In this document: in pieces, positions 418-21,724 of the stretch
How the letters are laid out: each line of letters starts with the position of its first letter
How positions within the stretch are numbered: position 1 is the stretch's first letter
Virus record (IMG/VR): IMGVR_UViG_3300005337_000049
Span: 1 to 23,359 of that record
Origin: a virus
Direction: 5' to 3' (one strand)
DNA: 23,359 bases
Made by a program: the position numbers and the translations under genes
The notes under the pieces: model-generated
Told to the model about the DNA's origin: nothing
The model's database searches: none
The model's input: the letters and a program-made list of their open reading frames with translations, nothing else

Positions 418-444
418 ACTCACCCCCCGCGGTGGGGGGTGAGT
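418..444. promoter_or_regulatory. Operator palindrome 1, perfect 27-bp dyad before the lysis/tail unit
   Basis: Arms ACTCACCCCCC and GGGGGGTGAGT match perfectly over 11 bp around the spacer GCGGT. This is the longest perfect copy of the repeated C-run/G-run palindrome. A convincing -10 directly after the G-run is missing; TACGCT at 449-454 is the best candidate. The site lies 29 bases upstream of the ATG at 474 and starts the unit of peptidase, endolysin, holin and tail genes. Confidence 0.75.
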
Positions 445-473
445 CGCGTACGCTACCTGCGGAGGTAGCCACC

Positions 474-1268
474 ATGGCAAAGCACTTCGACGAAGACGGC
501 GACGGCGTGGCCGACCAGCCGCGCGGCCGGCCAGACGATGGGGACTTCGACCTGGGAGTCCCATCGGTCACCGGTCAGTATTTCCACCGGCTGGAGCAGG
601 CGCGCGGGCTCGGGCGCCACGTGCTCCACGACACCCGCTCTCTGGAGTACGACGCGGCCGACCTGGTAGCCCAGGTGACCACCGAGCGGACCACCTACCA
701 CCAGCGGTACGGCGAGATCTTCGACCAGGGCGACGTGGGCGCGTGCACCGGCATGGCCGCGCTGGGGCTGATGAACACGGAGCCCTTCGTGGGCTCGAAG
801 CTGTTCACCACGGAGGACGCGCTGGCGTTCTACTCGCGGGAGACCGTGCTGGACGACCGCCAGATCCCGGGCCGCTACCCGCCCGAAGACACGGGCAGCA
901 CCGGTCTGTGGAGCATGAAGCAGCTCCGCGCCGACGGCCTGATCCCGGGTTACCGCTGGGCCTTCTCGCTGGCCACCGTGAAGCGGCTGCTCCAGGTCTC
1001 TCCGGTCTCGCTGGGGATTCCCTGGTTCAACTCCATGTTCGCCTCGGTGGACCGGCACGGCTTCCTGTCCGTGAACGCGGAGAGCGGCCTGGCCGGCGGC
1101 CACCAGATCGAGGCCACCGGCGTGGACTTCGAGCGCCAGGCCGTGGAGATCACGAACAGCTGGGGCGAAGGCTGGGGCGTGCGCGGCCGGGCGTACGTGC
1201 GCTTCTCGGACCTGGAGCAACTGCTGAAGCTCCACGGCGACGTGTCCGTGCCGACGGGGAGGAGCTGA
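474..1268 (+). CDS. Papain-like (C1A family) cysteine peptidase
   Basis: This 264-residue protein starts at ATG 474, with GGAGGT seven bases upstream. The papain signature is complete: oxyanion Gln85 and nucleophile Cys91 in QGDVGACTG, His210 in GGHQIEATG, and Asn228 in NSWGEGWG. It would hydrolyse peptide bonds. No signal peptide is visible, so it acts in the cytoplasm, in the virion, or after lysis. Residues 6-14 (DEDGDGVAD) fit the calcium-loop pattern DxDxDGxxD, which is unusual for such a peptidase. It is the first gene behind operator 1 and lies two bases before the endolysin gene, so a role in lysis, host-wall penetration or virion maturation is inferred. The family call is strong; the role is open. 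Confidence 0.85.
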   Translation: MAKHFDEDGDGVADQPRGRPDDGDFDLGVPSVTGQYFHRLEQARGLGRHVLHDTRSLEYDAADLVAQVTTERTTYHQRYGEIFDQGDVGACTGMAALGLMNTEPFVGSKLFTTEDALAFYSRETVLDDRQIPGRYPPEDTGSTGLWSMKQLRADGLIPGYRWAFSLATVKRLLQVSPVSLGIPWFNSMFASVDRHGFLSVNAESGLAGGHQIEATGVDFERQAVEITNSWGEGWGVRGRAYVRFSDLEQLLKLHGDVSVPTGRS

Positions 1269-1270
1269 TC

Positions 1271-2242
1271 GTGCCCGAAGGCATCGATGTCTACAGCAAG
1301 TACCAGAATGTCACCGACTGGGGCGCCGTTCGTCGGAGCGGCCGGCTGTTCGTCTACATGAAGATGACGGACGCCATGACCACCCGCGACACCGGCAACT
1401 GGGTGCAGCAGGCGCGTGCGGCCGGCCTCGCGGTGGGCGCCTACGGCTACGCCCAGCCGGGCTCCGCGCGTGACCAGTACGACTTCCTTCGCCGGACGGC
1501 GCGCAACCGCGGTGCCGTCGACTTGAGCCCGGCGCTGGACCTCGAAGACCCCTTCGTCCCCGGCGCCACCGCGGTGCAGTTCGCCGTGGCATGGCTTCGG
1601 CGCGCGATCGAGGTCGGGGAGATCCCGGTCTGGTACGCGAACGACAGCTTCATGAGCTACTGCCTCCCGGCCGTCCGCGCCCAGGTGCCCAGCGTGTGGC
1701 CCTGGATCGCCCGGTACGGTGCCCACCCGAAGAACACCTTCCGGACATGGCAGTACAGCAGCTCGGGCGTGGTCCCCGGTATCAAGGCCGCGGGCGTCGA
1801 CCTGAGCACCGGCGAGGCCCCCATCGTCCGGCCGAACCCCACCCCGGGGCCGACCCCCATCCCTATCCCGGAGGAGATCATGCAGAACGCCGAACCGCAC
1901 ACCCTGGAGCCCTCCCCGCAGTGGCAGAGCCGCACCTTCTCCGTGGAGGCCGGGAAGCTGGGTGAGGGCGGCAACAGCACGGTGGTGGAGACGATGTGGT
2001 TCAACCTCACGTCGGCGGACTACGGTGACCCGTCGGGCAGCACCGAGTACGGCTTGTGGGTCGGCAACGATCGCGGCGAGTACATCGGCTTCGGCGACGG
2101 GTCGGCGGAGCCCCAGGGCGTGATCACCGGCAACGGCTTCCGGCAGTTCGTGTTCAAGCCGGGTTCCCGGGTGTTCACGCTGTCGTGGCGGAACAACGGT
2201 GCAGCGAAGGCGGGGTACAGCTTCCCTCAGCGCGCCCAGTGA
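1271..2242 (+). CDS. GH25-family endolysin (lysozyme) with C-terminal beta domain
   Basis: Start GTG 1271 follows GGGGAGGAG at six bases, giving 323 residues. Residues 1-195 match GH25 muramidases: GIDVYSKYQNV near the N-terminus with Asp6, LDLED with Asp90/Glu92 as the likely catalytic pair, WQYSSSG, and AGVDLS with Asp177. GH25 enzymes cut the MurNAc-GlcNAc beta-1,4 bond of peptidoglycan. A Pro-rich linker (about 185-202) leads to a beta-rich C-terminal domain of about 115 residues with alternating aromatic and glycine motifs, probably for wall binding; I do not recognise its family. No signal peptide is seen, in keeping with release through the holin-like protein encoded next. Confidence 0.85.
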   Translation: MPEGIDVYSKYQNVTDWGAVRRSGRLFVYMKMTDAMTTRDTGNWVQQARAAGLAVGAYGYAQPGSARDQYDFLRRTARNRGAVDLSPALDLEDPFVPGATAVQFAVAWLRRAIEVGEIPVWYANDSFMSYCLPAVRAQVPSVWPWIARYGAHPKNTFRTWQYSSSGVVPGIKAAGVDLSTGEAPIVRPNPTPGPTPIPIPEEIMQNAEPHTLEPSPQWQSRTFSVEAGKLGEGGNSTVVETMWFNLTSADYGDPSGSTEYGLWVGNDRGEYIGFGDGSAEPQGVITGNGFRQFVFKPGSRVFTLSWRNNGAAKAGYSFPQRAQ

Positions 2243-2286
2243 TCCTCCCGGGCGGCTGGCTCGGGTGACATCGAGAGGAAACGATC

Positions 2287-2649
2287 ATGAAGATTTTCGG
2301 CCGGGACCCCCTGGCGTGGACCACCGCGATCGCGGCCCTGGTCCAGTTCTTCTGCGCCTTCGTCTTCCACGTGACGGTGGAGCAGGAAGGCGTCATCGCT
2401 GCGCTTGCCCTCGCGGTGTTCGGCCTGATCGGTGCCGCCGCGCTTCACGACGGCACGTGGGCGGCCGCGCTGATCTCGCTGGTGAAGGCGGGCATCGCGC
2501 TGGGTCTGGCGTTCGGTCTGGCGTGGGCGCCGGAGCAGCAGGCCACGGTGATGTTCGCCGTCCAGGCCGTTCTGACGCTGATCGTCCGTAACCAGGTCGT
2601 GGCCCCGGTGACGGCGTCCGGCCAGCGACTCCCGGCGCGGGCGCTCTGA
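2287..2649 (+). CDS. Holin-like small membrane protein
   Basis: This 120-residue protein starts at ATG 2287 behind GAGAGGAAA. It has about three to four hydrophobic segments: residues ~10-30, 36-54, 58-79 and a weaker one at 84-98. A polar, basic tail follows. It lies directly downstream of the endolysin gene and its TGA overlaps the next ATG (TGATG). Size, topology and position are those of an actinophage holin, which would form lesions in the cytoplasmic membrane to release the endolysin. No holin family can be assigned from sequence alone. Confidence 0.65.
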   Translation: MKIFGRDPLAWTTAIAALVQFFCAFVFHVTVEQEGVIAALALAVFGLIGAAALHDGTWAAALISLVKAGIALGLAFGLAWAPEQQATVMFAVQAVLTLIVRNQVVAPVTASGQRLPARAL

Positions 2650-6487: not shown

Positions 6488-6517
6488 GTCTCACCCCCCG
6501 CTTTGGGGGGTTATGAT
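6488..6517 (+). promoter_or_regulatory. Promoter with operator palindrome 2 (packaging unit)
   Basis: GTCTCA at 6488-6493 precedes CCCCCC, GCTTT, GGGGGG (6494-6510). The consensus -10 TATGAT is at 6512-6517, an 18-bp spacing. The palindrome fills the spacer. Transcription would begin near 6524 and cover the P-loop NTPase, both terminase genes and the gene at 9578. Confidence 0.8.
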
Positions 6518-6554: not shown

Positions 6555-7154
6555 GTGAGCAAGATCCTGTTCGTGGTCGGGGAGCCGGGGGTTGGAAAGT
6601 CCACGCTGGTGACGGAGGCGTTCGGCCGCTTCGAGCGGGCCGCCGTGGACCACCGCAGGGCCGGCGGACCCATGCGTGAGCTGCTGTGGCGCGGCGCCGA
6701 CCTGATCGGGTGCGAGCTGGGCCGCCGCATCGGCTCCCCGGCCCCGGTCTTCCCCGGCACTGACGCGATGAGCCAGACGGCGATCGTCGGCGTGGATGAG
6801 TGGCTGTGCGCCGGTGCCGATGGGCTGGGCCTGATCGTGCTCGAAGGCACGCGGCTGGCGAACAAGCGCTTCGTGCTCGCGGCCGCGGCCGGCGGCCATG
6901 ACCTCCAGCTCTTCTACCTCTACGGTCCGCCGGAGGCCAGTCAGCGGCGCAAAGAGCGCGGCACGGAGCAGGACGCCCGCTGGGTGAAGGGCCGCCAGAC
7001 TGCGGCGCGCAACTTCTACGACCTGTGTGACCGGATGCGCAACGACCTCCCCGACCAGATCGCCACGCACGTCTTGCCGGCGAGGCGGCCGGTGGAGGAC
7101 AACGCACGGTACCTGCTGGCCATGGCCGGTCTCGCCGCGCCCGTCTCCCGCTGA
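6555..7154 (+). CDS. P-loop NTPase, nucleotide kinase-like
   Basis: Start GTG 6555 lies behind CGGGGAG; 199 residues. The N-terminus is a clear Walker A, GEPGVGKST (Lys15, Ser16), right after a buried strand (ILFVVG). A later strand LGLIVLEGTRLAN may be the Walker B region. QLFYLYGPPEASQRRKERG has the arginines of a kinase lid, and ARWVKGRQTAARNF resembles tails of phage nucleotide or polynucleotide kinases. It probably phosphorylates a nucleotide or nucleic-acid end, but the substrate cannot be read from sequence. It opens the packaging unit, 34 bases before the small terminase gene. Confidence 0.65.
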   Translation: MSKILFVVGEPGVGKSTLVTEAFGRFERAAVDHRRAGGPMRELLWRGADLIGCELGRRIGSPAPVFPGTDAMSQTAIVGVDEWLCAGADGLGLIVLEGTRLANKRFVLAAAAGGHDLQLFYLYGPPEASQRRKERGTEQDARWVKGRQTAARNFYDLCDRMRNDLPDQIATHVLPARRPVEDNARYLLAMAGLAAPVSR

Positions 7155-7188: not shown

Positions 7189-7755
7189 GTGCCTCCCCGA
7201 AAGCTTCGATCGGTCACCAGTAGCCAGAAGTCCGCGCCTCGTGCGTCCGCCGCCCAGCTGCTTTACCAGGGTGACGAGATCTTCCGGATGGTGGCCCAGG
7301 GCTACACGATCACCGAGGCTGGGAAGAGCTTCGAGCCGCCGCTGTCTCAGCAGAAGGCGAGCCGGCTCTACAACGAAGCTCTGGCCCGGGTGCTGGAGTC
7401 GGACACCTCGCTCCGTCAGGCCATGCTGGAGCGCGAGCTGGAGACGTTGCGCCAGCTGAAGAAGCACTGGATGGACAAGGCACTTCGCGGCGACGACAAG
7501 GCCGCGAACATCGTCCTGAAGGTGGTCGATCGGGTGGCAAACCTGGCCGGCCTGAACCAGTCCCTGAAGATCCAGATCAGCAACCAGCGCGTGGACGCCA
7601 CCGTGGCGGAGCTGGTGGACCTCCTCGAAGGCAGCGCGGAGGACCAGGTGCCCCGCCTGCTGGAGTCTGGCGTCCTGGTCATCGAAGCCCCCGTGGTCGA
7701 GTCCGAGGAAGACGACGACGAAGAGGACCCGGAAGACGAGACGGCGGCGGTATGA
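7189..7755 (+). CDS. terS: Small terminase subunit
   Basis: Start GTG 7189 follows AGGAAGGAG, giving 188 residues. Residues ~15-60 form a helix-turn-helix-like unit (AAQLLYQGDEIFRMVAQGYT, then LSQQKASRLYNEAL). Helices at ~65-125 follow, suited to ring assembly, and the C-terminus is very acidic (EEDDDEEDPEDE). Small terminases recognise the packaging site and hand DNA to the motor. The assignment rests on this architecture and on the ATGA overlap with the large terminase gene. A pac or cos site may lie nearby but I could not identify one. Confidence 0.7.
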   Translation: MPPRKLRSVTSSQKSAPRASAAQLLYQGDEIFRMVAQGYTITEAGKSFEPPLSQQKASRLYNEALARVLESDTSLRQAMLERELETLRQLKKHWMDKALRGDDKAANIVLKVVDRVANLAGLNQSLKIQISNQRVDATVAELVDLLEGSAEDQVPRLLESGVLVIEAPVVESEEDDDEEDPEDETAAV

Positions 7756-9581
7756 ATGACGATGACCTGGTTGCCCAGATTCGGGCCAAGCTCGACCAGC
7801 TGAACCCCGGCGAGCGGCGCTTGGCCCAGCTCCGGATCGACCGGATCCTGCGCCGGAAGCGTGCGCTCGCGCAGTATCCGAGCCCCGGCCACCTCGCCCA
7901 GCTGATCCAGCCGGACACGGTCCAGACGAAGATGATGACCGCGCTCGACCAGATCGCGATCGCGGCGGACGCTGGCTTCCAGCGCCGGTGGATCATCAGC
8001 ACCCCTCCGCAGGAGGGCAAGACGATGCGGATGGGGACCGCGGTCCCGCTGTGGCTGCTCATGCGCAACCCGACGCGTCGGATCGTCATCGCGTCCTACG
8101 AGCAGACGCTGGCGGCCCGCTCCACGCTGGCCGTCCGCCAGGCGATCGAGACCTTCGGCGCTGGGTACAAGGGGGACCGGAACTACGCCGGCCAGGAAGA
8201 TCACCTGGGCCTGATCCTGGACCCGGACCAGGCGAAGCAGGCGAACTGGAACCTGATTGACGGGCCGGGGCGGCGGAACGGCGGCATGGTCGCGGTCGGT
8301 GTGGGCGGCTCGCTCACGGGCCGGTCGGCGGACGTGATGATCATTGACGACGCCATCAAGAACTCCAAGCAGGCGGACAACCCGACCCAGCGGCAGCTGA
8401 TCTGGGAGTGGTACCAGGCCGTGGCCACCACCCGTCTGAGCCCGTCCGCCATCGTGATCGTGATCGGGACCCGGTGGCACGAAGACGACCTGATCGGCCG
8501 GATCATCAAGCAGGACAAGGAGGGCGTGGCGGAGTTCCGCCAGCTGGTCATTCCGGCGATCGCCAAGGGCAAGGATCCGCTGGGCCGCCGGCCAGGCCAG
8601 TATCTCAAGTCCACCCGCGGCCGGAGCGTGGCGGAGTGGAAGCGGATCCGCAAGCGTGTCGGTGAGCGGTTCTGGTCCGCGCTCTACATGGGTGAGCCGC
8701 ATCCCCCAGCCGGGGGAATTTTCCAGCTGGAGTGGATCGAGAACCACCGGCGACCAGTGGCCCCGGAGCTGTCGGTGGTGGAGGTCTTCGTGGACCCCGC
8801 CGACAACGAAGGCGAGGGCGACGAAGCGGGCATCATCACGATGGGCCGGGGCGCGGAGGACCAGCACCTGTACGTGCTCGCCGACGACTCCGGACACATG
8901 ACCTCGGGCCGTTGGTTCCGGGTCGCCTTCATCGCGGCGCTTCGGCACGACGCTTCCGCGGTGCGCTACGAGAAGTCGCTGTCCGGGCTCCGGCGGATCG
9001 GCCGCAAGGCGTGGAAGGACTTGCTGCGCGAGGCTCGGAAGCTCCACGAAATGGATCCGTACAAGGGCTCGGAGTTCCTCCGCCGGCCAGAGCAGCCCGA
9101 CGGCGAACTGATCTTCCAGGCGGCCCAGGAGCTGGCGCGCGACGACGCGGAGCCGGAAGAGATCGTGCGTCTCCAGCGCGATCTCACCGAGCTGTGGCCC
9201 TACGTCCCGAAGGTCATGGAGCTGCCCGCCACCGGCATCCCCGTCCAGGCGTTCCCGGCCAAGGGCACGAAGACCTACCGGGCCAAGATGACCGGCCCGA
9301 TGCACGAGTGGGGACACGTGCACTGGGTCGGCGACTTCGTTGAGCTGAAGTACCAGCTGGTGGCCTGGCAGGAGAGCCAGGACAGCCCCGACCGCATGGA
9401 CGCCTACGTCCACGGCGTCACCAAGCTGGGCCAGACCGGTGATGCGCTGATGGAGCCACCCCAGCCACCCGTCTCCGGGCGGTCCCTGCCGAAGCGCCCG
9501 AGCGTGGAGCAGGACACCCTCCAGCGCCAGGGCGTCACCCGCTCCGGGCTCGGGGTGGCCGCCGGAAGGTTCGGGCCGTGA
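7752..9581 (+). CDS. terL: Large terminase subunit (packaging ATPase/nuclease)
   Basis: ATG 7752 overlaps the small-subunit stop; 609 residues, a usual length. The ATPase domain has a variant Walker A STPPQEGKT (Lys90) and Walker B DVMIIDDAIK with Asp199/Asp200. IVIVIGTRWHEDD is the coupling-type motif, and PPAGGIFQLEW matches the linker of actinophage large terminases. The RNase H-like nuclease domain begins with VEVFVDPADN (Asp348). The enzyme pumps DNA into proheads and cuts concatemers. It starts on a strongly charged coiled segment (residues 8-45). Its TGA overlaps the GTG of the next gene. The long reverse frame across this gene is a shadow. Confidence 0.9.
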   Translation: MNDDDLVAQIRAKLDQLNPGERRLAQLRIDRILRRKRALAQYPSPGHLAQLIQPDTVQTKMMTALDQIAIAADAGFQRRWIISTPPQEGKTMRMGTAVPLWLLMRNPTRRIVIASYEQTLAARSTLAVRQAIETFGAGYKGDRNYAGQEDHLGLILDPDQAKQANWNLIDGPGRRNGGMVAVGVGGSLTGRSADVMIIDDAIKNSKQADNPTQRQLIWEWYQAVATTRLSPSAIVIVIGTRWHEDDLIGRIIKQDKEGVAEFRQLVIPAIAKGKDPLGRRPGQYLKSTRGRSVAEWKRIRKRVGERFWSALYMGEPHPPAGGIFQLEWIENHRRPVAPELSVVEVFVDPADNEGEGDEAGIITMGRGAEDQHLYVLADDSGHMTSGRWFRVAFIAALRHDASAVRYEKSLSGLRRIGRKAWKDLLREARKLHEMDPYKGSEFLRRPEQPDGELIFQAAQELARDDAEPEEIVRLQRDLTELWPYVPKVMELPATGIPVQAFPAKGTKTYRAKMTGPMHEWGHVHWVGDFVELKYQLVAWQESQDSPDRMDAYVHGVTKLGQTGDALMEPPQPPVSGRSLPKRPSVEQDTLQRQGVTRSGLGVAAGRFGP

Positions 9582-10073: not shown

Positions 10074-10103
10074 TTGTCTCACCCCCAAAATAGGGGGTAG
10101 CAT
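10074..10103 (+). promoter_or_regulatory. Promoter with operator palindrome 3
   Basis: TTGTCT at 10074-10079, CCCCC, AAAATA, GGGGG (10082-10097), then -10 TAGCAT at 10098-10103. Only eight bases separate the -10 from the ATG at 10112, so the transcript probably starts at or next to the start codon (leaderless). It drives the seven-gene unit ending at the terminator near 12740. Confidence 0.8.
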
Positions 10104-12756: not shown

Positions 12757-12784
12757 TTGTGTCCCCCCTGGTGGGGGGTGACTT
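12757..12784 (+). promoter_or_regulatory. Orphan operator palindrome 4 in the convergent gap
   Basis: TTGTGT (12757-12762), CCCCCC, TGGT, GGGGGG (12763-12778), then TGACTT (12779-12784) as a weak -10. No plus-strand gene follows; the next gene is the 3' end of the minus-strand translocase. It may drive a short or antisense RNA, or act only as a binding site. Confidence 0.6.
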
Positions 12785-12874: not shown

Positions 12875-14818
12875 CTACGCGTCCACTCGCTCGCCCGCGG
12901 ACTCGCTCACGGGCACCCGCGTGTCGCCCACGCGCGCGAACCGGCGCCGACCGAGCGCGCGCACCTTGCCAGCCTCGCCCAGGCCCTTGAGCCGCTTGTA
13001 CGTCTGGGCCCGGGACAGCCCTACGATCTCCATCAGCTCGGGCACCGTGAGGATGCCGGTAGCCGAGTCGTCGAAGGCCCGCAGGACGGTGTCCCGCTCG
13101 CGCGCCGGGACGACCTCGCCCGGGACGATGACGACGGCGCCGTAGGTGGTGCCCATGAGCGCGTCCCACGCCTCCTTCTCCGCCATCTTGGCCAGCTTGG
13201 AGGCTTCGATGGCGGCCAGCTTGCGGTCCGCCTTCGGGACCCACCAGCCCTTCGCGATGCGGGGCGTCTGGTGGTGCGGGTCGCGGAGCCGGAATTCGCC
13301 CTGGCCCAGGCCGATCGAGGTCCAGCCCATCCGGACTTCGGTGCCCCACAGGTTCTTGTTCTGCTGCTCGGACAGCAGCAGGCCCACGGTGGTAACCAGC
13401 TGGCCGCGGAACTCCGTCTTGCCCAGGTCCTCCTTCGTCGCGTTCTGGGACCCGATGATGATCCGCACGCCGCACTTGCGGGCCTTCTTCGCGATGCGCC
13501 CCAGCAGGGTGTTCACGTACTTCTCCCAGCTCAGCTGGGGCTCCTTCTCGCCCATGTCCCGGGCGGCCGCGATCAGGTCGGGGAACTCGTCGATCACCAG
13601 GAAGAGCCACGGCGTGGCGTCGCTGGGCTCGAACTCGTCCGCGTCGTCGTCGTCCATCGCGTCCGAGCCCAGGAACTGCTCGCGAGACTCCACGAAGCGC
13701 ATGACGGCCTGGAGGTTGACGATCGCGCTGTCGAAGTCCTTGGCCAGGGGCAGCGCGAAGGCGGCCTTCCACGGGTTCATGGTCGCCCCGCCGGCCATAT
13801 CGATGCCCACCACCAGGGCGTCTGTCGCGCCGACCAGCCAGCGGAGGATGTTGTGGAGGAAGCCCGACTTCCCGCCGCCGGACTGGCCGAACACGCCCGC
13901 GTGGGCGATGTTCCAGTCGAGCACCTCGCCGTCGCTGTAGATCCCCAGTTCCAGCTTCTTGCCCAGGCTCCGGATCGAGTACGTCCCGACGGCCGGCGCG
14001 CTGTGCTCCAGCAGGCCCTCCCACGGGTTCTTCGGCTGGAAGGTGATGTACGCCTGGTTTGAGTGGTTCAGGTCTCGGTGGGGGAAGATCGAGTCCGGCC
14101 GGGCCTTGTAGTAGCTGTGCAGCGCGTCCATGGACCGCTGGAGGATCGCAAAGGTGGCCGCTTCCGGGAGACGCACGTGGAGTTCCGCCGCGCGGCCGCG
14201 AGACCGCGAGGACAGGACCTTGGTACCGGCGATCGCCTTCAGGTTGTCCGGGCACCGGTCCCGGTCCGTGATGCGGTTCCACTTCCGGGCGATCCGCTCG
14301 GACCGCCCGGCGGACCGGACCCGGCGGTGGTACCACCACAGGCCGCCCAGGACCAGTACCGCGATGCGCCACCACCACAGCGTGAAGTCGGACCCACCGA
14401 AGGCGGACCGGACCGCAACGTACCCGCCGATCGCGGTACCGAACCCGGCGAGGTAGATCCGCTCCGCGGGCCGGTCCAGCACGCCGTCCTTGCCGCGGTC
14501 CAGTCCCGCCGGTACCACTCGCGTGACGACCTGGGACCACCGCTCGTTCAGGACCGGTCCGAAGTACGCCAGGACCCCGGTACCGACCGGGAGCAGCAGC
14601 GCCAGCAGGGACCACCAACCCGGGTCGAACGCGGACCAGATCGCCGAGACCATCCAGACCAGGAAGCCCACCACCAGCGGGGTGAGGGCCCGGCGCCAGC
14701 GGAAGGCCAGGATCCGGAGGCGGCGGCTGATCTTGCCGAGCGCCCACAGAGTGAACTTCGCCAGGAGGGCGCCGGCCGCGATGTCCAGGGCGCCCCCCTG
14801 CTGCTTCGTCTTGCTCAC
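12875..14818 (-). CDS. FtsK/SpoIIIE-type DNA translocase, TraB-like
   Basis: Start GTG 14818 has GGAGGTCTC directly upstream; 647 residues. The N-terminal ~165 residues hold about four membrane segments (around 44-62, 68-86, 122-140 and 148-165). The ATPase domain has Walker A FGQSGGGKSG (Lys317), Walker B FLVIDEFPDL (Asp410/Glu411) and IIIGSQNA. The C-terminal ~70 residues form a winged helix (LTVPELMEIVGLSRAQTYKR), the counterpart of the FtsK gamma or TraB DNA-recognition domain. Such proteins move double-stranded DNA through a membrane pore, in Streptomyces plasmids as conjugation motor. It overlaps the stop of the DUF2637 gene upstream. GGWCC is dense in its first third and normal in the rest. 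Confidence 0.85.
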   Translation of the reverse strand: MSKTKQQGGALDIAAGALLAKFTLWALGKISRRLRILAFRWRRALTPLVVGFLVWMVSAIWSAFDPGWWSLLALLLPVGTGVLAYFGPVLNERWSQVVTRVVPAGLDRGKDGVLDRPAERIYLAGFGTAIGGYVAVRSAFGGSDFTLWWWRIAVLVLGGLWWYHRRVRSAGRSERIARKWNRITDRDRCPDNLKAIAGTKVLSSRSRGRAAELHVRLPEAATFAILQRSMDALHSYYKARPDSIFPHRDLNHSNQAYITFQPKNPWEGLLEHSAPAVGTYSIRSLGKKLELGIYSDGEVLDWNIAHAGVFGQSGGGKSGFLHNILRWLVGATDALVVGIDMAGGATMNPWKAAFALPLAKDFDSAIVNLQAVMRFVESREQFLGSDAMDDDDADEFEPSDATPWLFLVIDEFPDLIAAARDMGEKEPQLSWEKYVNTLLGRIAKKARKCGVRIIIGSQNATKEDLGKTEFRGQLVTTVGLLLSEQQNKNLWGTEVRMGWTSIGLGQGEFRLRDPHHQTPRIAKGWWVPKADRKLAAIEASKLAKMAEKEAWDALMGTTYGAVVIVPGEVVPARERDTVLRAFDDSATGILTVPELMEIVGLSRAQTYKRLKGLGEAGKVRALGRRRFARVGDTRVPVSESAGERVDA

Positions 14819-15651
14819 GAGACCTCCGTCTCCTCGGTGAAGATGCCCAGGCCCTTGCGAACCTCGGTGCCCAGGCGTCCATCCCTCGCCAGGGCCAGGA
14901 GACGGAGTGCCCGCCCCGAGCCCACCTTGTGCTCATCCATGACGGCTCGCTTCGACTGCCAGGCGCCGTTCGGGTCCGCGTCGTGGGCCGCGCGGATCGC
15001 CTTCACGATCACGTCATCGCCCGGACCGGCGGACCGGGGACCGCGCGGGGCGGGGACCACCTTCATGCTGGCCATGCGGACCGGCTTCTGGACCGGGGCC
15101 AGCTTCGCCAGCTCTGCGGACCGGACCGCTGGGTCCGAGGACCACAGCCGGACCGGGACCCGGTACGTGGCGGGACCGGCCCCCCAGGTCCGGCCCTTCG
15201 GGGCTTGCCCGAGCGAGGACCAGACCGCGTCCCGGACCGCCTTGTCCGGACCGGACCGATGAGCAGCGGTACCGGCGCCGTGCCGGTGCAGTACCGCGAG
15301 CAGCGCGGCGAGCATCGCGGGCGGTACTGCACCCAGGACCGCCGGGAGGATGGTCCCCTGGCTGATCCAGTGGTCCGCGATGTTGCCGACCAGGGACCCG
15401 AAGATGGCCGCCAGCGCGAGGGCCTTCGCCTGCTTCCAGGCGGGGGACCGGGTCACCCACAGGTCCATGCCGAGCGCGGCCACCGCGTCCAGGGTGAGCG
15501 GGAATAGGAACGAGAAGTGCCCGAACCCGGCGTACTCCGCGAGGTGCTTCAAGGACTCGAAGGAGATCACGGCGGCGGAGACGATCGTGGCCGCCGCGAA
15601 CAGCCGGAGACGCGGTCCGGGAGAGAGGAGCTTGGGCAGGTGCATGGGCAT
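14815..15651 (-). CDS. DUF2637 membrane protein, SpdB-like
   Basis: ATG 15651 is chosen, with AAGGA upstream; a second ATG at 15645 is possible. It has 278 residues. Four membrane segments fall at ~15-34, 43-63, 73-92 and 97-118. A loop with Pro/Arg-rich sequence leads to a C-terminal winged-helix-like part (SKRAVMDEHKVGSGRALRLLALARDGR). This is the DUF2637 layout seen in plasmid spread proteins (Spd) and AICEs of Streptomyces. Those proteins are thought to help spread transferred DNA between hyphal compartments. It is followed by the translocase gene with a GTGA overlap. GGWCC pentamers are extremely frequent along its coding DNA in all three frames. Confidence 0.75.
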   Translation of the reverse strand: MPMHLPKLLSPGPRLRLFAAATIVSAAVISFESLKHLAEYAGFGHFSFLFPLTLDAVAALGMDLWVTRSPAWKQAKALALAAIFGSLVGNIADHWISQGTILPAVLGAVPPAMLAALLAVLHRHGAGTAAHRSGPDKAVRDAVWSSLGQAPKGRTWGAGPATYRVPVRLWSSDPAVRSAELAKLAPVQKPVRMASMKVVPAPRGPRSAGPGDDVIVKAIRAAHDADPNGAWQSKRAVMDEHKVGSGRALRLLALARDGRLGTEVRKGLGIFTEETEVS

Positions 15652-15845: not shown

Positions 15846-15880
15846 AGGGTAGTACCGGACCCCCAAAATGGGGGAGAGAC
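15846..15880 (-). promoter_or_regulatory. Promoter/operator palindrome 5 (transfer-like unit)
   Basis: Read on the minus strand: GTCTCT (15880-15875), CCCCC, ATTTT, GGGGG (15874-15860), then TACTAC or TACCCT (about 15854-15846) as candidate -10. The -10 is less clear than in other copies. It lies back to back with operator 6 and would start transcription near the ATG at 15839. Confidence 0.65.
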
Positions 15881-15930: not shown

Positions 15931-15959
15931 TTGACACCCCCCATTTTGGGGGGTACGAT
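15931..15959 (+). promoter_or_regulatory. Consensus promoter with operator palindrome 6
   Basis: TTGACA (15931-15936), CCCCCC, ATTTT, GGGGGG (15937-15953), TACGAT (15954-15959). The palindrome is exactly the 17-bp spacer. Just upstream, ACCGGTCCGG is followed by ACCGGTCCGA, a tandem palindromic pair (15911-15930). Transcription would start near 15966, ahead of the gene at 16006. Confidence 0.9.
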
Positions 15960-16506: not shown

Positions 16507-16508
16507 TC

Positions 16509-16648: not shown

Positions 16649-16677
16649 TTGACACCCCCCAAAATGGGGGGCATGAT
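16649..16677 (+). promoter_or_regulatory. Consensus promoter with operator palindrome 7
   Basis: TTGACA (16649-16654), CCCCCC, AAAAT, GGGGGG (16655-16671), CATGAT (16672-16677). As in copy 6, the palindrome is exactly the 17-bp spacer. It drives the genes at 16714, 16988 and 18031. Confidence 0.9.
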
Positions 16678-16899: not shown

Positions 16900-16909
16900 C
16901 TGGGTCGAA

Positions 16910-16960: not shown

Positions 16961-16987
16961 ACTGATCACCGAGCACGGAGGATCACC

Positions 16988-18028
16988 ATGCACGAGTTCG
17001 AGTCCGGTTTCGCGGTCCGTGAGCCGAGCTGGCACGGTCTGGAGAAGCTGGTCGCCGAAGAGGACCGGCCGATGAACTGGGAGGACGCCCGCAAGGTGGC
17101 CGGCTTGACCTGGGACTGGATCGAGCAGCCGCTGTATCAGCAGATGATCACCGTGGGCGAGGATGGCGAGCCCGTCGTCTCCTACCGCGAGGTCCCGAAC
17201 CATCGCATCGTGGCCCGCACTGACACTGGCGCCGTTGTCCACACCCAGCGCGAGACCCGCACGATCATCACGATCAAGGACATGGGCGAGATCGCCCACG
17301 CGATCACCGAGCAGACTCGCCTCCCGATCGAGACCATGGGCTCCGTCCGCGAGGGCCGCTCGATCTACGGCCTGGCCGTCCTGGGCGAGGATCGGCACAT
17401 CGGCAACGATCCGTCGGCGACGCGCCCGTACCTCGGGGTCGTGTGCCACGCGGACGGTAAGGGCGGAGCGCGGGCCTACCCGACCTCGATCCGGATCGTC
17501 TGCTGGAACACTCTTTCCGCCGCCGACGCCCGCGCGGACCAGGAGAACACCGTGGCCACCTTCGCCCATCGGGGCGACTGGAAGGACCGCATCGAGGAGG
17601 CCCGGAAGGCGATCTTCGGCGCCCGCCGCGCCTTCGACAAGTGGACCCGGATCGGCGAGGAACTCCAGAAGGTCCTGGTGGACGATGTCCAGGCGGAGGA
17701 CTTCGTGCGCGAGCTGATCCCGGCGCCGAAGAACAAGGAGTTCGTCTCGGAGCGCGTCATGCGCAACATCGAGGGCGAGCGCTCGAAGGTCCGCGGTGCG
17801 TTGTCCAGCCGGACCAGCGAGGGGATCGAGGGCTCCGCGTACTGGCTGGTTCAGGGGGCGGCGGAGTACTTCGACCACCTGCGCAAGTTCAAGAACCAGG
17901 AGACCTACGTGGCCCGGACCCTGGTGGACGTGAACGTGGCCAAGGGCCTGGCAACGAAGATCGCCCTGGACATTGCCGGCGCGGACGACCTCTTCGGCCG
18001 GATCTCCGCCGACCTGGTGGACGCCTGA
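16988..18028 (+). CDS. DUF932 family protein
   Basis: ATG 16988 follows CGGAGGATCACC; 346 residues. The N-terminus MHEFESGFAVREPSWHGLEK is the hallmark of the DUF932 / plasmid-like protein family, followed by DRPMNWEDARKVAGL, PNHRIVARTDTG and IVCWNTL at about 175. These proteins are common on plasmids and large phages; a DNA-maintenance or recombination-related role has been suggested but not settled. The C-terminal half is helical with charged segments. It is the main gene of the unit driven by operator 7 and is followed after two bases by a 59-residue gene. Confidence 0.8.
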   Translation: MHEFESGFAVREPSWHGLEKLVAEEDRPMNWEDARKVAGLTWDWIEQPLYQQMITVGEDGEPVVSYREVPNHRIVARTDTGAVVHTQRETRTIITIKDMGEIAHAITEQTRLPIETMGSVREGRSIYGLAVLGEDRHIGNDPSATRPYLGVVCHADGKGGARAYPTSIRIVCWNTLSAADARADQENTVATFAHRGDWKDRIEEARKAIFGARRAFDKWTRIGEELQKVLVDDVQAEDFVRELIPAPKNKEFVSERVMRNIEGERSKVRGALSSRTSEGIEGSAYWLVQGAAEYFDHLRKFKNQETYVARTLVDVNVAKGLATKIALDIAGADDLFGRISADLVDA

Positions 18029-18030
18029 TC

Positions 18031-18210
18031 ATGTACGCCGTGATCGGTACGGCACCGACCGTCGACACCACGACGGCGGTCGGTCCGTACCGGACCGTAG
18101 AGAAGGCCCTGGCGGTGAGCAGCGACCTGGAGGCGTTGGGCTACAACGCGGAGATCGTGCCACTGCTGAAGCTGTCCGACCTGGAGCCTGTGGCCACCTG
18201 GGAGGACTGA
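18031..18210 (+). CDS. 59-residue single-domain protein (VGP..T..A family)
   Basis: ATG 18031 sits two bases after the DUF932 stop in the context TGATCATG with a weak ribosome site, so it is probably coupled. The product has an opening strand MYAVIGTAP, VGPYRTVEKALAVSSDLEAL as helix, then a strand IVPLLKLS. The same pattern (VGPF, T, helix, PL.SP) forms the N-terminus of the protein at 22344. It resembles small proteins in which strand-helix-strand folds form a ferredoxin-like half. Function unknown. The terminator begins three bases after its TGA. Confidence 0.6.
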   Translation: MYAVIGTAPTVDTTTAVGPYRTVEKALAVSSDLEALGYNAEIVPLLKLSDLEPVATWED

Positions 18211-18212
18211 CC

Positions 18213-18251
18213 GGAAGGTCCGAGCCTGCTCCCGTGGGGCTCGGACCTTCC
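18213..18251 (+). terminator. Hairpin terminator after the DUF932 unit
   Basis: GGAAGGTCCGAGCC (18213-18226) pairs perfectly with GGCTCGGACCTTCC (18238-18251), a 14-bp stem with an 11-base loop. The T-tract after it is short (CCCCTTTCTC). It separates this unit from promoter 8, which begins five bases on. Confidence 0.85.
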
Positions 18252-18254
18252 CCC

Positions 18255-18283
18255 TTTCTCTCCCCCCATCTTGGGGGTAAGAT
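18255..18283 (+). promoter_or_regulatory. Promoter with operator palindrome 8
   Basis: TTTCTC (18255-18260), CCCCCC, ATCTT, GGGGG (18262-18277), -10 TAAGAT (18278-18283). Transcription would start near 18290, 30 bases ahead of the GTG at 18320. It drives the string of genes up to 21078. Confidence 0.8.
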
Positions 18284-18319
18284 CGAGGGTACCAACCACC
18301 ACCGAATGGGGAGCCCATC

Positions 18320-18763
18320 GTGGCCAAACCCAAGCATCGCAAGGTAAAGCCCCCGAAGAAGGCGAAGCGTCGGGGCTGGTTCTGGCGAGCCTTCTTCCGT
18401 CACTACTGGCGCCGCACGAAGGCTCGCGTGAAGGGCGCCCTCATCCGGACCGCGGGGCCCAAGGAGATCGCCCGCGCGAGCCAGGACTACGACAAGGACG
18501 GGGCCTACATCCGGCCCGTCATCCAGCCCTACCCGTGGCGGCACTACGTGGCCCCGGATGACCTGGAGCGCTACGCCGCGAGCATCGGCGGCTGGGAGTT
18601 CGAGTTCGAGCTAATGCCCGAGTCCAACGTGGAACTCACGAAGGCGGCCTACGACGCGGCGGCGGAACACTTCGGCCCCTACGTCGATTCCCAGCCGCTG
18701 GACTGGATCGAAGCGATCAACGACCGCGCGGGCGCGGTCCTGCCCAAGAAGATCACCAACTAG
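18320..18763 (+). CDS. Protein with basic N-terminus, unknown
   Basis: GTG 18320 (VAKPKHRKVKPPKKAKRRGW) is preceded by GGGGAG; 147 residues. The first ~40 residues are extremely basic with Trp/Phe (WFWRAFFRHYWRRTKARVKG), suited to nucleic-acid or membrane-surface binding. The rest is mixed alpha/beta with acidic character (LERYAASIGGWEFEFELMPE). No known domain recognised. It is the first gene of the longest small-gene operon; the strong ribosome site AGGAGG for the next cistron starts in its stop region. Confidence 0.6.
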   Translation: MAKPKHRKVKPPKKAKRRGWFWRAFFRHYWRRTKARVKGALIRTAGPKEIARASQDYDKDGAYIRPVIQPYPWRHYVAPDDLERYAASIGGWEFEFELMPESNVELTKAAYDAAAEHFGPYVDSQPLDWIEAINDRAGAVLPKKITN

Positions 18764-18771
18764 GAGGAGCT

Positions 18772-18804
18772 GTGCCCGAGGAGAACGAAAGCGGCGGGCA
18801 ATGA
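18772..18804 (+). CDS. Ten-codon coupled cistron before the WhiB-like gene
   Basis: GTG 18772 follows the best Shine-Dalgarno sequence of the area, AGGAGGAG. It encodes only VPEENESGGQ, and its TGA at 18802-18804 overlaps the ATG at 18801. The WhiB-like gene has no comparable ribosome site of its own at 18801. The likely function is to load ribosomes for coupled translation; a functional peptide is not implied. Confidence 0.4.
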   Translation: MPEENESGGQ

Positions 18805-19214
18805 TCAGGCCCCGGTGGTCCGCTCGATCCGGACGCGGCGGACCGGTGAACTACGAGCAGGCCCAGCGCAAGCGCCCGGACCTGCTCCACGAGATCATGG
18901 CCGGACCGAACCTGCCGGGCGCCGCGTGCGCGACGACGGACCCGGAGATCTGGTTCCCCGAGAAGGGCGGCTCCACGAAGCTCGCCCGAACGATCTGTCG
19001 GGGCGGCGAGTACCACGGTAGGTACATTCCGCCGTGCCCCGTCCGCGCGGCCTGCCTGACTGGCGCCCTGGACCTCCCGAGCACGATCACCCATTACGGC
19101 ACGTGGGCGGGGCACACGGCGCCCCGCCTTCGCCGGATGCGCGAGCTTCGGGACGCCCTGCGCCGGATCGTCTGCCCGCCGGCCGAATCCGAGGGCAAAG
19201 GCGAAGCGGCATGA
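18801..19214 (+). CDS. WhiB-like protein with widened cysteine spacing
   Basis: The frame starts at ATG 18801 (137 residues); GTG 18846 is an alternative start. The WhiB signature is visible: AACATTDPEIWFPEKGGS with Cys43, then Cys66, Cys79-PVRAA-Cys85, and THYGTWAGHTAPRLRRM in place of the usual GVWGG turn and basic helix. WhiB proteins bind a [4Fe-4S] cluster and act with the principal sigma factor at promoters. The usual second-to-third cysteine spacing is CxxC. Here it is Cys66 and Cys79, an insertion of ten residues (GGEYHGRYIP area). Cluster binding may therefore differ. Translation is probably coupled to the ten-codon cistron. A regulatory role on phage or host promoters is inferred. 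Confidence 0.75.
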   Translation: MIRPRWSARSGRGGPVNYEQAQRKRPDLLHEIMAGPNLPGAACATTDPEIWFPEKGGSTKLARTICRGGEYHGRYIPPCPVRAACLTGALDLPSTITHYGTWAGHTAPRLRRMRELRDALRRIVCPPAESEGKGEAA

Positions 19215-19459
19215 GCTGCAAGAAGACCGGACGGTACGGCAGTGAGAAGGCGGCCATGGACGCCGTGGAGCGACTGTGGGCCGCGATCCGGGACGGACGT
19301 TCGGAGTACCGGATGTACACCCCGACCGCCGCCGTCTGGTGCTACGCGCACAAGTGCTGGCACACCACCAGCCGCGACACGAAGCCCAAGGGCCGCGGAA
19401 AGCGCGGCACGCACAAGGGAATGCGCACCAACGACCGTCGATTTAGGAGCAAGCGATGA
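19211..19459 (+). CDS. Small basic Cys/His protein, paralogue-like to 11147
   Basis: ATG 19211 overlaps the WhiB stop (ATGA); 82 residues. It opens MSCKKTGRYGSEKAA, has a helix (MDAVERLWAAIRDG) and closes with WCYAHKCWHTTS, then a basic tail (KGRGKRGTHKGMRTNDRRFR). The Cys-Lys start, helix and closing C-x3-4-(C/H)WHxT motif match the arrangement of the 108-residue protein at 11147. Metal and nucleic-acid binding are plausible. Function unknown. Confidence 0.6.
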   Translation: MSCKKTGRYGSEKAAMDAVERLWAAIRDGRSEYRMYTPTAAVWCYAHKCWHTTSRDTKPKGRGKRGTHKGMRTNDRRFRSKR

Positions 19460-19635
19460 TCAAATGGCTGGCGAGCATGTTCGAGCGCATCCGCACCTAC
19501 GGAGACCGGCGGGTGGCCCGCGCCGTGGAGTGCCCGTCGTGCCGCCACTCCACGGCTGATGCGTCGTCCGACTGCTCTTGCTGGTATCCGGGCTGCCTGT
19601 GCGTCGAGCTTTACGAGACGCGGTACCACTCGTGA
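19456..19635 (+). CDS. 59-residue cysteine-rich protein
   Basis: ATG 19456 overlaps the preceding stop (ATGA), with TTAGGAGCAAG upstream as ribosome site. The first 20 residues are an amphipathic helix (MIKWLASMFERIRTYGDRR). Cysteines follow at 26, 29, 40, 42, 47 and 49 (CPSC, CSC, CLC), a pattern able to bind one or two zinc ions. Its TGA overlaps the GTG of the next gene. No family recognised; overlaps on both sides support translation. Confidence 0.6.
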   Translation: MIKWLASMFERIRTYGDRRVARAVECPSCRHSTADASSDCSCWYPGCLCVELYETRYHS

Positions 19636-19961
19636 GCGGGGTCTGGCTGGACTCCGCTCCCGAGGAGCACCGGTGCCGTCTGCCGTTCCTGGTCCCCTTC
19701 CGTGTTCGGACTGGTGACCGCTGGAAGTGCCGGTGTGGCCGGGTCTGGCGAGTCACCGAGAGCGCGACCGGTCGTGAGTGGAGATGGGAGAACCCGCCGG
19801 GCGAGCTGGAAGGCATGAAGGTCTTCCGACCGGTGACCGATGAGCAGTTGTGGTGCTGGATCAGCCAGGAACTGGATCTTCAGACCCGAGACCAGGACGT
19901 GTGTGCGGAGACCCTGGTGGAGATCATCCGGAAGCACTTCGAGATAGGGAGCAGGCAGTGA
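19632..19961 (+). CDS. Small zinc-ribbon-like protein, unknown
   Basis: GTG 19632 overlaps the preceding stop (GTGA); 109 residues. The N-terminal half has RWKCRCGRVWRVTESATG, one short CxC ribbon-like strand pair, with an earlier Cys in EEHRCRLP. The C-terminal half is helical and acidic (DEQLWCWISQELDLQTRD, ETLVEIIRKHFEIG). It resembles many short actinophage zinc-ribbon proteins. Its TGA overlaps the ATG at 19961. Confidence 0.55.
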   Translation: MSGVWLDSAPEEHRCRLPFLVPFRVRTGDRWKCRCGRVWRVTESATGREWRWENPPGELEGMKVFRPVTDEQLWCWISQELDLQTRDQDVCAETLVEIIRKHFEIGSRQ

Positions 19962-20755
19962 TGGGCGAACGTCCGAAGAGGATCAAGGCACCGGCGCCGG
20001 ACGGCTGGGCGCAGGTGGCCGCCGCCGTGCGCGAGGTGCGGGACCAGATCCGCGAGTCCTTCGGGCCCCGGCTGGAGTACAAGCTGGATGTGTCGGACGC
20101 TGTGAGGGCGCTGGATAAAGTCCGGCCCCTGGTGGTGGAGGCGACACCCGAGGAGATGGCCGACCCGCTCGCGGTGCGCGGTCTGACGAAGGAGGCGCTG
20201 GGGCGCCGGATCCGAGACGACGTGCTGACCTACTGCGGTTTCGTGGACGGCGGCGAGGTGACCGCCGATGGGAGCGCGGACAACGACCTGGCGCACGAAC
20301 GCGCCGACGCCGTGATGGACATGCTTGCGAAGGTGGACGGCCACAGCTACCCGGCCGCGGTCGTCCCGCCTGCCGAAGGCGCCTCGCTTCATGAGCTGCT
20401 GAGCGCCCTCCGGCCGCTGGTCTACCGTGTCGTGAACGCCACCGCCGCCCCAGGCCAGGAGCTGACGGAGAACGTGGACGTGATCATGGCCTTCCTCAAC
20501 CTTGCCCGCGAGCACTCGGACCCGAAGCGGTTGCTACCGCGCGGCGACCGGCTCGGGGGGTGGCTCCCGCCGGGCACGCCCGTAACTCTGCATCTCGGCA
20601 AGGAGGGCGAGAGCGAGTACTCCGGCGTGGTAGAACCGAGCCGGGACATGGTCACTGTCCGGCTGGACGGTTCCGGCGTGGTGACCGACTTCCCTCGGAA
20701 CCGGATCTCGAAGGAGGGCGAGCCGTGGATGCCGCCGAAGCCCACCGACAGCTGA
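19961..20755 (+). CDS. 264-residue helical protein, unknown
   Basis: ATG 19961 overlaps the preceding stop (TGATG) with AGGGAGCAGG upstream. The N-terminal ~190 residues are mostly helical and charged (WAQVAAAVREVRDQIRESFG, LTKEALGRRIRDDVL). The last ~60 residues are a small beta domain (PVTLHLGKEGESEYSGVVEP, VTVRLDGSGVVTDFPRNRI) that resembles an SH3-like or KOW-like barrel. I do not recognise a family. Its 3' end overlaps the next gene by 31 bases. Confidence 0.55.
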   Translation: MGERPKRIKAPAPDGWAQVAAAVREVRDQIRESFGPRLEYKLDVSDAVRALDKVRPLVVEATPEEMADPLAVRGLTKEALGRRIRDDVLTYCGFVDGGEVTADGSADNDLAHERADAVMDMLAKVDGHSYPAAVVPPAEGASLHELLSALRPLVYRVVNATAAPGQELTENVDVIMAFLNLAREHSDPKRLLPRGDRLGGWLPPGTPVTLHLGKEGESEYSGVVEPSRDMVTVRLDGSGVVTDFPRNRISKEGEPWMPPKPTDS

Positions 20756-21078
20756 GCCGAGCGACGGGCGCACCGCCGCGTCCGGACGAACTCGCCCGCC
20801 GGCCAGTGGAGGAGCGCCTGGCCGAACTTCCGGTAGCGAGCCGGGCCACGCATCTCCGGCGGGGCGTCAACGCCATCGCGAGCGCGATGGGCGTGGCCCA
20901 CGACGCACTGGAGGAGTTCGTGGCCGCGGTACGGAAGCTGGCGGATGCCGCCGAAGAGGTCACCAACGACGACGGCCGGGAGATCTGGATGACGGCCGGC
21001 GAGGTCGAGTTGGACCAGTGGACCCAGCGCCTGACCGATGCGACGGCCGCCGTCCGTCGCCAGCTCGGGTCCGGGTAG
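20725..21078 (+). CDS. 117-residue helical protein, unknown
   Basis: GTG 20725 is chosen because AAGGAGG lies seven bases upstream. The longer frame starting at 20560 is rejected, since its first part is a shadow of the previous gene. The product is nearly all helix (ERLAELPVASRATHLRRGVN, HDALEEFVAAVRKLADAAEE) and may form a coiled coil. It closes the operon; the TAG lies directly against operator 9. Confidence 0.55.
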   Translation: MDAAEAHRQLSRATGAPPRPDELARRPVEERLAELPVASRATHLRRGVNAIASAMGVAHDALEEFVAAVRKLADAAEEVTNDDGREIWMTAGEVELDQWTQRLTDATAAVRRQLGSG

Positions 21079-21101
21079 CCCCCACTGTGGGGGGTGTGAT
21101 A
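21079..21101 (+). promoter_or_regulatory. Promoter with operator palindrome 9
   Basis: CCCCC (21079-21083), ACTGT, GGGGGG (21089-21094), then TGTGAT (21095-21100) as -10. The -35 region GGGTAG is poor, so activator dependence is possible. It starts the leader of the endonuclease VII-like gene. Confidence 0.7.
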
Positions 21102-21107
21102 CCTTCG

Positions 21108-21149
21108 ATGTTGTCGGGTCCGGACGCCAACCAGGTGGGCAGCGATTAG
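21108..21149 (+). CDS. Possible 13-residue leaderless leader peptide
   Basis: ATG 21108 lies seven bases after the -10 box and is followed by 13 codons (MLSGPDANQVGSD) and TAG. No Shine-Dalgarno sequence is present, so it would be read from the very start of the transcript. Its last codons run into the first hairpin (5' arm 21131-21138). Whether it is translated is unknown; position is the only evidence. Confidence 0.3.
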   Translation: MLSGPDANQVGSD

Positions 21150-21233
21150 CTACCGTCAGCCACCTGGAGCAACGTCTTATCCCTGACACACGATGGCCCT
21201 TACGTCGCTTCCTTGAAGATGACGTGGAGGGCC
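21131..21233 (+). promoter_or_regulatory. Structured leader RNA with two hairpins
   Basis: Hairpin 1: CCAGGTGG (21131-21138) with CCACCTGG (21160-21167). Hairpin 2: GGCCCT (21195-21200) with AGGGCC (21228-21233), ACGTC (21202-21206) with GACGT (21221-21225), and CTTC with GAAG inside (21208-21218), a nearly continuous 15-bp stem. CACCT of hairpin 1 is also complementary to AGGTG of the ribosome site (21248-21252), which would allow an alternative, closed state. Confidence 0.5.
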
Positions 21234-21255
21234 TTCGTTGTATCTGGAGGTGATC

Positions 21256-21687
21256 ATGGGCAAGTGGAAGCACCGGCTGCTGTCGGCCGACATGGTGAGT
21301 GGTCGCGGCGTGTGCGAGCACTGCGGAGAAGTTGACCTTGCCATTCGGGATGGGAGGCCACGCTGCTCAGTGGCCCGTCGCCAGCAGAAGGGTGCCGTCA
21401 CCCTGGAGCAGTCGCGCGAGTACAGCCGCCGCGCGCGTGAGCGCCACCCGGACCGCTGGAGGACCTCCACGCGGAAGGCTCACGGGCTCACCTGGCAGGA
21501 AGCTTACGACTTCCGCGCAGGCAAGGTGTGCGCCATCTGCGGTTCTGATGAGGGCCTCGCGGTCGATCACGATCATGAGACAGGTCGAGTGCGGGGCGTT
21601 CTTTGTCGATCGTGCAACACCGGCCTGGGCTTCTTCGGCGACGACGTGGCGCGACTCGCTCGGGCGATCGAGTACCTGACCGAGTAA
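21256..21687 (+). CDS. Endonuclease VII-like (HNH) nuclease
   Basis: ATG 21256 is set by TGGAGGTG five bases upstream; 143 residues. The catalytic domain is clear: VCAICG (Cys92, Cys95), LAVDHDHETGRVRG (Asp104-His105-Asp106-His107) and LCRSCNTGLG (Cys117, Cys120, Asn121), the recombination endonuclease VII pattern. An additional N-terminal VCEHCG (Cys20, Cys23) with Cys37 may form a second zinc site. Endonuclease VII cleaves branched DNA and clears junctions before packaging; in smaller phages it may also act like an HNH nuclease in cos cleavage. It has its own operator and structured leader. The phage thus also encodes a RusA-like resolvase (2649). Confidence 0.85.
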   Translation: MGKWKHRLLSADMVSGRGVCEHCGEVDLAIRDGRPRCSVARRQQKGAVTLEQSREYSRRARERHPDRWRTSTRKAHGLTWQEAYDFRAGKVCAICGSDEGLAVDHDHETGRVRGVLCRSCNTGLGFFGDDVARLARAIEYLTE

Positions 21688-21696
21688 TCGGTGTTT

Positions 21697-21724
21697 CGGG
21701 TTCCCCCAGAATGGGGGGTGAGAT
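21697..21724 (+). promoter_or_regulatory. Promoter with operator palindrome 10
   Basis: CCCCC (21703-21707), AGAAT, GGGGGG (21713-21718), TGAGAT (21719-21724) as -10; the -35 (CGGGTT, 21697-21702) is weak. The ATG at 21737 follows after 12 bases without a Shine-Dalgarno sequence, so the first gene has a very short or no leader. Confidence 0.7.

Follow-up and report, generated by a model that had tools for sequence, protein, structure and literature searches.

The Arc protein of phage P22 is a ribbon-helix-helix (RHH) repressor whose two sheets lie about one helical turn apart. The RHH fold may also be held in a single chain: AvtR, encoded by Acidianus filamentous virus 6, one of the archaeal lipothrixviruses, is a single-chain tandem RHH protein that is reported to have several conserved sites on the viral genome and to repress its own gene (PMC5569661), and TraY of the F plasmid is a monomer containing a whole RHH dimer fold (PMC12117103). 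Control through many sites has been described in cluster A mycobacteriophages (L5, TipsytheTRex), whose stoperators are asymmetric 13-mers, read in an orientation-dependent manner by a helix-turn-helix (HTH)-containing monomeric repressor and often located in elongation regions (PMC9283540). In phage SPbeta, the repeated intergenic element SPBRE consists of sites of one master repressor, MrpR (PMC10516654), and in IncP plasmids a small set of repressors, KorA/KorB, shuts most promoters of the element (PMC4889941, PMC11790492). Here, we analyze a 23,359-bp virus fragment (IMG/VR record IMGVR_UViG_3300005337_000049, hereafter “the window”) carrying ten palindromes of the form C5-6N4-6G5-6, which are probably the operators of a single phage-encoded, autoregulated and genome-wide regulator, most likely a repressor, for which the best candidate is a protein family that we call c35.

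Arc is unlike c35 in being a homotetramer of single RHH chains and in acting at one operator region of P22. AvtR is a virus-encoded single-chain tandem RHH protein, as c35 is predicted to be by structural match, but it works at archaeal promoters, its imperfect AT-rich sites (about eight) are not a part of most promoters, and no sequence relation with c35 is detectable. TraY is similar to the predicted c35 in fold, whereas it acts mainly at oriT in the relaxosome, without a genome-wide operator set, and no sequence relation with c35 has been shown. The cluster A phages share with the system proposed here the principle of one phage repressor and more than 20 sites over an actinobacterial phage genome; however, in the present case the sites are symmetric and placed in promoter spacers, and a search for HTH_3 proteins gave no match. 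The contrast that the sequence-only reading had drawn with cluster A stoperators is correct, as these are asymmetric 13-mers (PMC9283540), and this is not a cluster A system, since both asymmetric sites and prophage-maintenance genes (integrase/ParABS) were looked for and neither was found. MrpR differs from c35 in having a recombinase fold, fewer sites and an integrated prophage as its setting, and KorA/KorB are several co-operating, non-RHH repressors of a plasmid. A literature search of open-licence PMC papers found none describing an operator of this kind.

The palindrome as a promoter element

The window is without a near relative among cultured phages, against which megablast and tblastn gave a distant terminase as the sole match (about 34% identity for the best matches). 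Relatives were gathered from IMG/VR via terminase and motif searches, and the comparison set comprises 20 metagenomic contigs including the window (671 kb in total), two of which, G006 and G019, are complete genomes of about 61 kb with 127-bp end repeats. Gene calls come from a codon-usage script that had been trained on the window, and start codons are therefore approximate. The GC content, together with WhiB, DUF2637 and an RsdA-like region, suggests high-GC bacteria as hosts.

All ten palindromes listed by the sequence-only reading are present where it had placed them (Table 1) and all are intergenic. The pattern C5N6G5 occurs at nine places with a total of 13 overlapping matches, where 0.13 would be expected (100 dinucleotide shuffles, none reaching 13), and the tenth place is a 15-bp C5N5G5 copy (copy 5); the reversed control, G5..C5, does not occur in the window. 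The only other C5..G5 in the window, CCCCCAGCCGGGGG (14 bp, C5N4G5, at 8703-8716), was rejected as an operator because it lies within the terminase gene and is conserved in relatives as codons. C5..G5 within genes is mostly a coincidence of coding, the 14-bp CCCCC(G/A)GCCGGGGG in terminase.

Nine of the palindromes stand, as had been proposed, at the start of a transcription unit, copies 1, 2, 3, 6, 7, 8, 9 and 10 on the plus strand and copy 5 on the minus strand; the exception is copy 4, flanked by convergent operons and with a terminator just before it. It also holds that TTGACA is separated from TACGAT (copy 6) or CATGAT (copy 7) by exactly the 17-bp palindrome. The –10 boxes that had been placed at the palindrome edge of other copies are found, directly or 1 bp on, in copies 2, 3, 8, 9 and 10 (TATGAT, TAGCAT, TAAGAT, TGTGAT and TGAGAT, respectively), and in copy 10 TAGACT (21724-21729) suits a leaderless start at ATG 21737 equally well. 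Copy 1 and, on the minus strand, copy 5 have no –10 box directly at the edge. The TCAC/GTGA flanks are clear in some of the copies, not in all. Sites orthologous to copy 1 are present in nine contigs. Copy 4 is conserved in nine contigs, where the –10 box of the relatives is TATGTC/TATGTT; judging from the sequence, its promoter would transcribe antisense into the FtsK-like gene. In the same region (12696-12900), a GTCTCA-rich non-coding stretch downstream of the operator is kept in nine contigs.

Over the 20 contigs there are 184 palindromes of at least 15 bp, 181 of which lie outside genes, while intergenic DNA amounts to 8.6%; with 3 of 184 sites inside genes, an equal frequency in the two compartments, which the sequence-only reading had named as a refutation, is contradicted. 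At least five divergent clades carry the element in their promoter spacers. In the 98 sites left after removal of redundancy, which were oriented by the neighboring gene and not by promoter boxes, a TTGACA-like –35 box starts exactly at position –6 in 36 (0–4 at other offsets), and a –10 box starts at the right edge of the palindrome in 53, with 14 more after 1 bp. Start codons follow 12–13 nt past the palindrome, a distance that fits leaderless mRNA, or 33–48 nt past it. The symmetrised 17-mer reads C5-[C/T]-[A/G]-NNN-[T/C]-[G/A]-G5 with an A/T-rich center, its C5 and G5 arms being fixed by the search seed. To avoid this seed bias, promoters were also searched first, as TTGnnn-(16-18)-TAnnAT or TAGATT, ignoring the spacer: the palindrome is the spacer in 73 of 76 intergenic promoters (58 of 61 distinct sequences), one of the three promoters without it (TTGACCACCCCTGAATAGGGGGATAGATT) has a shortened version, and the scan found no palindrome-less promoter of this type inside genes. 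In the two complete genomes (105 genes in G006 and 97 in G019), every gene belongs to a co-directional run that has an operator region at its head. There is a second architecture at the lysis cassette, at copy 5 and perhaps at copy 10, where the –10 box is displaced by 5–9 bp and a –35 box is not visible.

The exact motif retrieved from IMG/VR a related set of contigs, and the palindromes mark a phage family known solely from that database. Among cultured phages and plasmids, exact motif searches gave no more than stray matches, and a 30-mer of copy 6 gave partial ones. TTGACA-C6N5G6 gave seven scattered matches in the GTDB species set, including one in Streptomyces monashensis with no further site around; these are lone sites and were taken as chance, as were contigs with a single CCCCCCAAAATGGGGGG and no site set (e.g., G020, G016, G021).

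The lysis-cassette sites (423-439 in the window; G002, G004, G005, G015, G018, G030) are alone in having flanks that extend the inverted repeat. These flanks differ between two clades yet stay complementary (ACTCA/TGAGT versus CGTGCTCT/AGAGCACG in clade B), which suggests an additional role as a hairpin or as an extended operator. Copy 9 is followed (21095-21240) by about 140 nt of structured non-coding sequence, which has a strong hairpin at its end, before the endonuclease VII gene. Its RNA fold z is –3.1 in the window and –3.2 in the G001 counterpart, those of G005 and G019 not being significant; the gap before the endonuclease VII gene recurs in eight contigs. An Rfam search of the window, this stretch included, gave no match, and it is possibly a phage small RNA.

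c35, a candidate reader of the operator

The c35 proteins (about 143–187 aa) are among the families conserved in near-complete genomes. Their gene is the first of a recombination/replication operon that also encodes, as read from the sequences, an ERF-type protein, a nuclease-like protein, a single-stranded DNA-binding protein and a DnaB-like helicase, and it lies behind its own palindrome in all 12 motif-rich contigs that reach this operon; in G017 the start was miscalled downstream, and the likely true start directly follows the site. Sequence searches detected no c35 among cultured phages or plasmids and no convincing match among about 790 actinobacterial genomes: borderline ones in three of these (E about 6e-4 to 9e-4) are barely above chance expectation. 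No Pfam RHH model matches c35, and a sequence search of the PDB with the c35 profile returned no RHH match.

Two AlphaFold models, resting on shallow alignments of nine rows, predict beta-alpha-alpha twice in one chain (E17-25 H26-38 H43-58 E77-85 H86-98 H103-117, the same in the second clade), with a pLDDT of about 80–92 in the RHH parts. The best structural match in the PDB is F TraY (Z 8.7–10.5; for 9f0y_G, Z 10.5 and 2.8 Å over 97 residues), followed by AvtR (4hv0, Z 7.0), whereas many matches to condensation domains (Z 3–4) were disregarded as unspecific. The ribbon PRxYGxxRxRIRFxVP is the best-conserved block, nearly invariant across clades, and in the second ribbon conserved arginines at alternating positions, opposite to hydrophobic ones, are predicted to face the DNA. 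By fold criteria the models make c35 a single-chain tandem RHH protein, which is the best candidate for binding the operator. The c35 proteins of some clades (L105:9995-10507, G004, G018, G006, G017 and G019) have a further small alpha-beta insert in the linker that joins their RHH units; it is missing in the clade of the window.

Proposed repression of the whole genome and its alternatives

The idea that lysis, tail/packaging, transfer-like and accessory units share one operator and answer to a single regulator, proposed from the window alone, gains support from the comparison of relatives (181 of 184 sites intergenic, 73 of 76 promoters, all genes in two complete genomes), and one operator indeed stands at most promoters, including that of the candidate regulator, as is expected of a master-repressor regulon. 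Each c35 protomer would form a whole RHH fold and insert its two-stranded sheet into one major groove, and two protomers on the same face of the DNA would read the C-tract and the G-tract, the tract centers being 11 bp apart; guanine reading by the ribbon arginines and the 11-bp spacing would fit this arrangement. Since the 17-bp site is itself the promoter spacer, the bound protein would block the host sigma-70/HrdB-type RNA polymerase at near-consensus –35/–10 boxes. By repressing its own leaderless promoter c35 would set its own level, and through this autoregulation all units would be damped or silenced together. Both the binding of c35 to the sites and repression by it are what we infer from this evidence.

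Whether the regulator represses or activates had been left undecided, and the near-consensus boxes favor repression. According to the activator alternative, the palindrome would recruit either c35 acting positively or a phage WhiB-family protein working with a host sigma factor: a WhiB-containing family is encoded in 11 contigs, the lysis sites and copy 10 have a displaced –10 box and no –35 box adjoining the palindrome, and both activation and repression are described for AvtR, the closest viral counterpart (PMC5569661). However, most sites lie between near-consensus TTGACA and TAnGAT at 17 bp, in promoters that should work alone and are not expected to need an activator, and a protein filling the spacer would obstruct the polymerase; an autoregulated repressor is therefore favored and general activation appears unlikely. 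WhiB as the reader is further disfavored because a palindrome is never seen directly at the start of a WhiB gene, while c35 always has one. In the second architecture the operator would cover the –35 region, and there an activating role is possible. The binder might instead be another conserved phage protein, such as the winged-helix family 26 (phrog_1123-like) or family 20 (about 100 aa), both conserved in near-complete genomes and the latter always preceded by a palindrome, in a shared divergent promoter; this is quite unlikely, as no site stands at the start of any family 26 gene and family 20 is without a detectable DNA-binding domain, whereas c35 unites the predicted fold, the arginine ribbon and the autoregulatory placement.

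The C6/G6 arms can form stable stems, and the flanks of the lysis-cassette sites extend them, both sides changing between clades, so that the palindromes could act as RNA hairpins in termination, processing or attenuation. Over all sites, however, the flanks extend the stem no more than chance (113 of 184 have no flanking pair), and a GC stem followed by a T run, as in intrinsic terminators, was flagged only for copy 4 among the copies in 12000-23359; a role as DNA is favored because the registration to the –35 and –10 boxes is fixed and operon ends are without sites, and the RNA alternative seems very improbable. Hardly credible at all is that the phage borrows the control of a host regulator, for example a CsoR-type G-tract repressor: operators of the CsoR/RcnR family are G/C-tract inverted repeats, but the GTDB matches are isolated, a regulon-size site set is seen in the phages alone, and no CsoR-family protein (PF02583) was found in eight contigs.

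Several observations weigh against repression by c35 itself. The gene lies outside the window, and in the nearest long relative (G005) the ortholog of copy 1 is about 8.4 kb downstream of it; RHH domains are recognized in c35 at best very weakly by Pfam/PHROGs (phrog_6506, Arc-like, E 0.077), and the Foldseek E-values against the PDB are weak (0.04). Among intergenic gaps of 60 bp or more, about half are without an operator, and there may therefore be promoters beyond the operator-bearing ones. The shifted –10 box and missing –35 box of copies 1 and 5 and of lysis sites generally could also be explained by an activator. Finally, no lysogeny module was found, leaving the benefit of a whole-genome repressor hard to see: models for integrase, resolvase, ParB and ParA (PF00589, PF00239, PF02195, PF13614) gave no match, and HTH_3 (PF01381) gave none in eight contigs including the two complete genomes, other HTH families not having all been tested. 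The regulator that we propose may serve a dormant state or episome, or the timing of lytic growth. More tentatively, and with real doubt, virtually every promoter (early, late, lysis) may be built around one operator spacer that a single-chain RHH protein would read, and, with no integrase, partition genes or HTH repressor detected, this protein could be the whole-genome governor of a non-integrating phage and not a lambda-type lysogeny switch.

Genes of the window and implications

As to a possible phage-plasmid nature, FtsK-like and DUF2637 genes are present, and ParA/ParB gave no Pfam match. The DUF2637 family includes SpdB-type plasmid spread proteins, and the FtsK-like and DUF2637 proteins together recall actinobacterial plasmid transfer; the former had no match by tblastn in phages or plasmids. 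In and around their genes, GGACCGG and related words are clustered (14000-16000 in the window; also in G001, G005, G006, G009, G017 and G019), in a manner reminiscent of the recognition repeats of plasmid TraB-type translocases. The product of 16006-16506, directly behind operator copy 6, appears to be an anti-sigma-like phage protein.

Table 1. Putative operators, promoters and annotated genes of the window.
Feature	Coordinates	Strand	Remarks
Operator copy 1 (CCCCCCGCGGTGGGGGG)	423..439	+	between DnaB-like gene end and lysis cassette; best –10-like TACGCT 449-454; ATG 474
C1-like peptidase, first lysis-cassette gene	474..1268	+	weak Pfam PF00112
GH25 endolysin	1271..2242	+	PF01183, E 4.8e-22
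Operator copy 2	6494..6510	+	–10 TATGAT 6512-6517; gene GTG 6555
P-loop kinase, first packaging-operon gene	6555..7154	+	PF18751, E 1.1e-21
Terminase large subunit	7752..9581	+	PF03237, E 2e-12; query for related contigs
Operator copy 3 (palindrome 10082-10097)	10074..10103	+	promoter TTGTCT-18-TAGCAT; ATG 10112, leaderless spacing
Operator copy 4 (palindrome 12763-12778)	12757..12784	+	post-terminator, convergent operons; TTGTGT upstream; –10 degenerate
FtsK/SpoIIIE-like translocase	12875..14818	-	PF01580 below cut-off; phrog_31069 E 1.5e-12
DUF2637 protein	14815..15651	-	PF10935, E 7.8e-7
Operator copy 5	15860..15874	-	serves DUF2637/FtsK operon; no –10 at edge; orthologous sites in G001, G005, G009, G012
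Promoter with operator copy 6 (15937-15953) as whole spacer	15931..15959	+	TTGACA-[CCCCCCATTTTGGGGGG]-TACGAT
RsdA-type sigma-factor-binding region and C-terminal hydrophobic segment	16006..16506	+	PF16751 28.2 bits, cut-off 26.7
Promoter with operator copy 7 (16655-16671) as whole spacer	16649..16677	+	TTGACA-[CCCCCCAAAATGGGGGG]-CATGAT; ATG 16714
Operator copy 8 (18262-18277)	18262..18283	+	–10 TAAGAT; GTG 18320
WhiB-family protein	18801..19214	+	PF02467, E 3.5e-9; own start without adjoining operator
Operator copy 9 (21079-21094)	21079..21100	+	–10 TGTGAT; heads structured non-coding stretch before endonuclease VII gene
Operator copy 10 (21703-21718)	21703..21729	+	–10 TGAGAT or TAGACT; ATG 21737, leaderless spacing

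Multi-operator repressors are known in a few phages and plasmids, but in this family the operator belongs to the architecture of nearly every recognizable promoter, and its candidate reader is of a type, the single-chain RHH protein, for which F TraY and archaeal viruses provide the main examples. If the proposed regulation is true, the promoters of an uncultured phage family could be called from sequence alone, and c35 with its site would provide a compact, orthogonal repressor-operator pair for high-GC hosts. One could then also test why a phage in which no lysogeny module is visible would restrain all of its genes at once.

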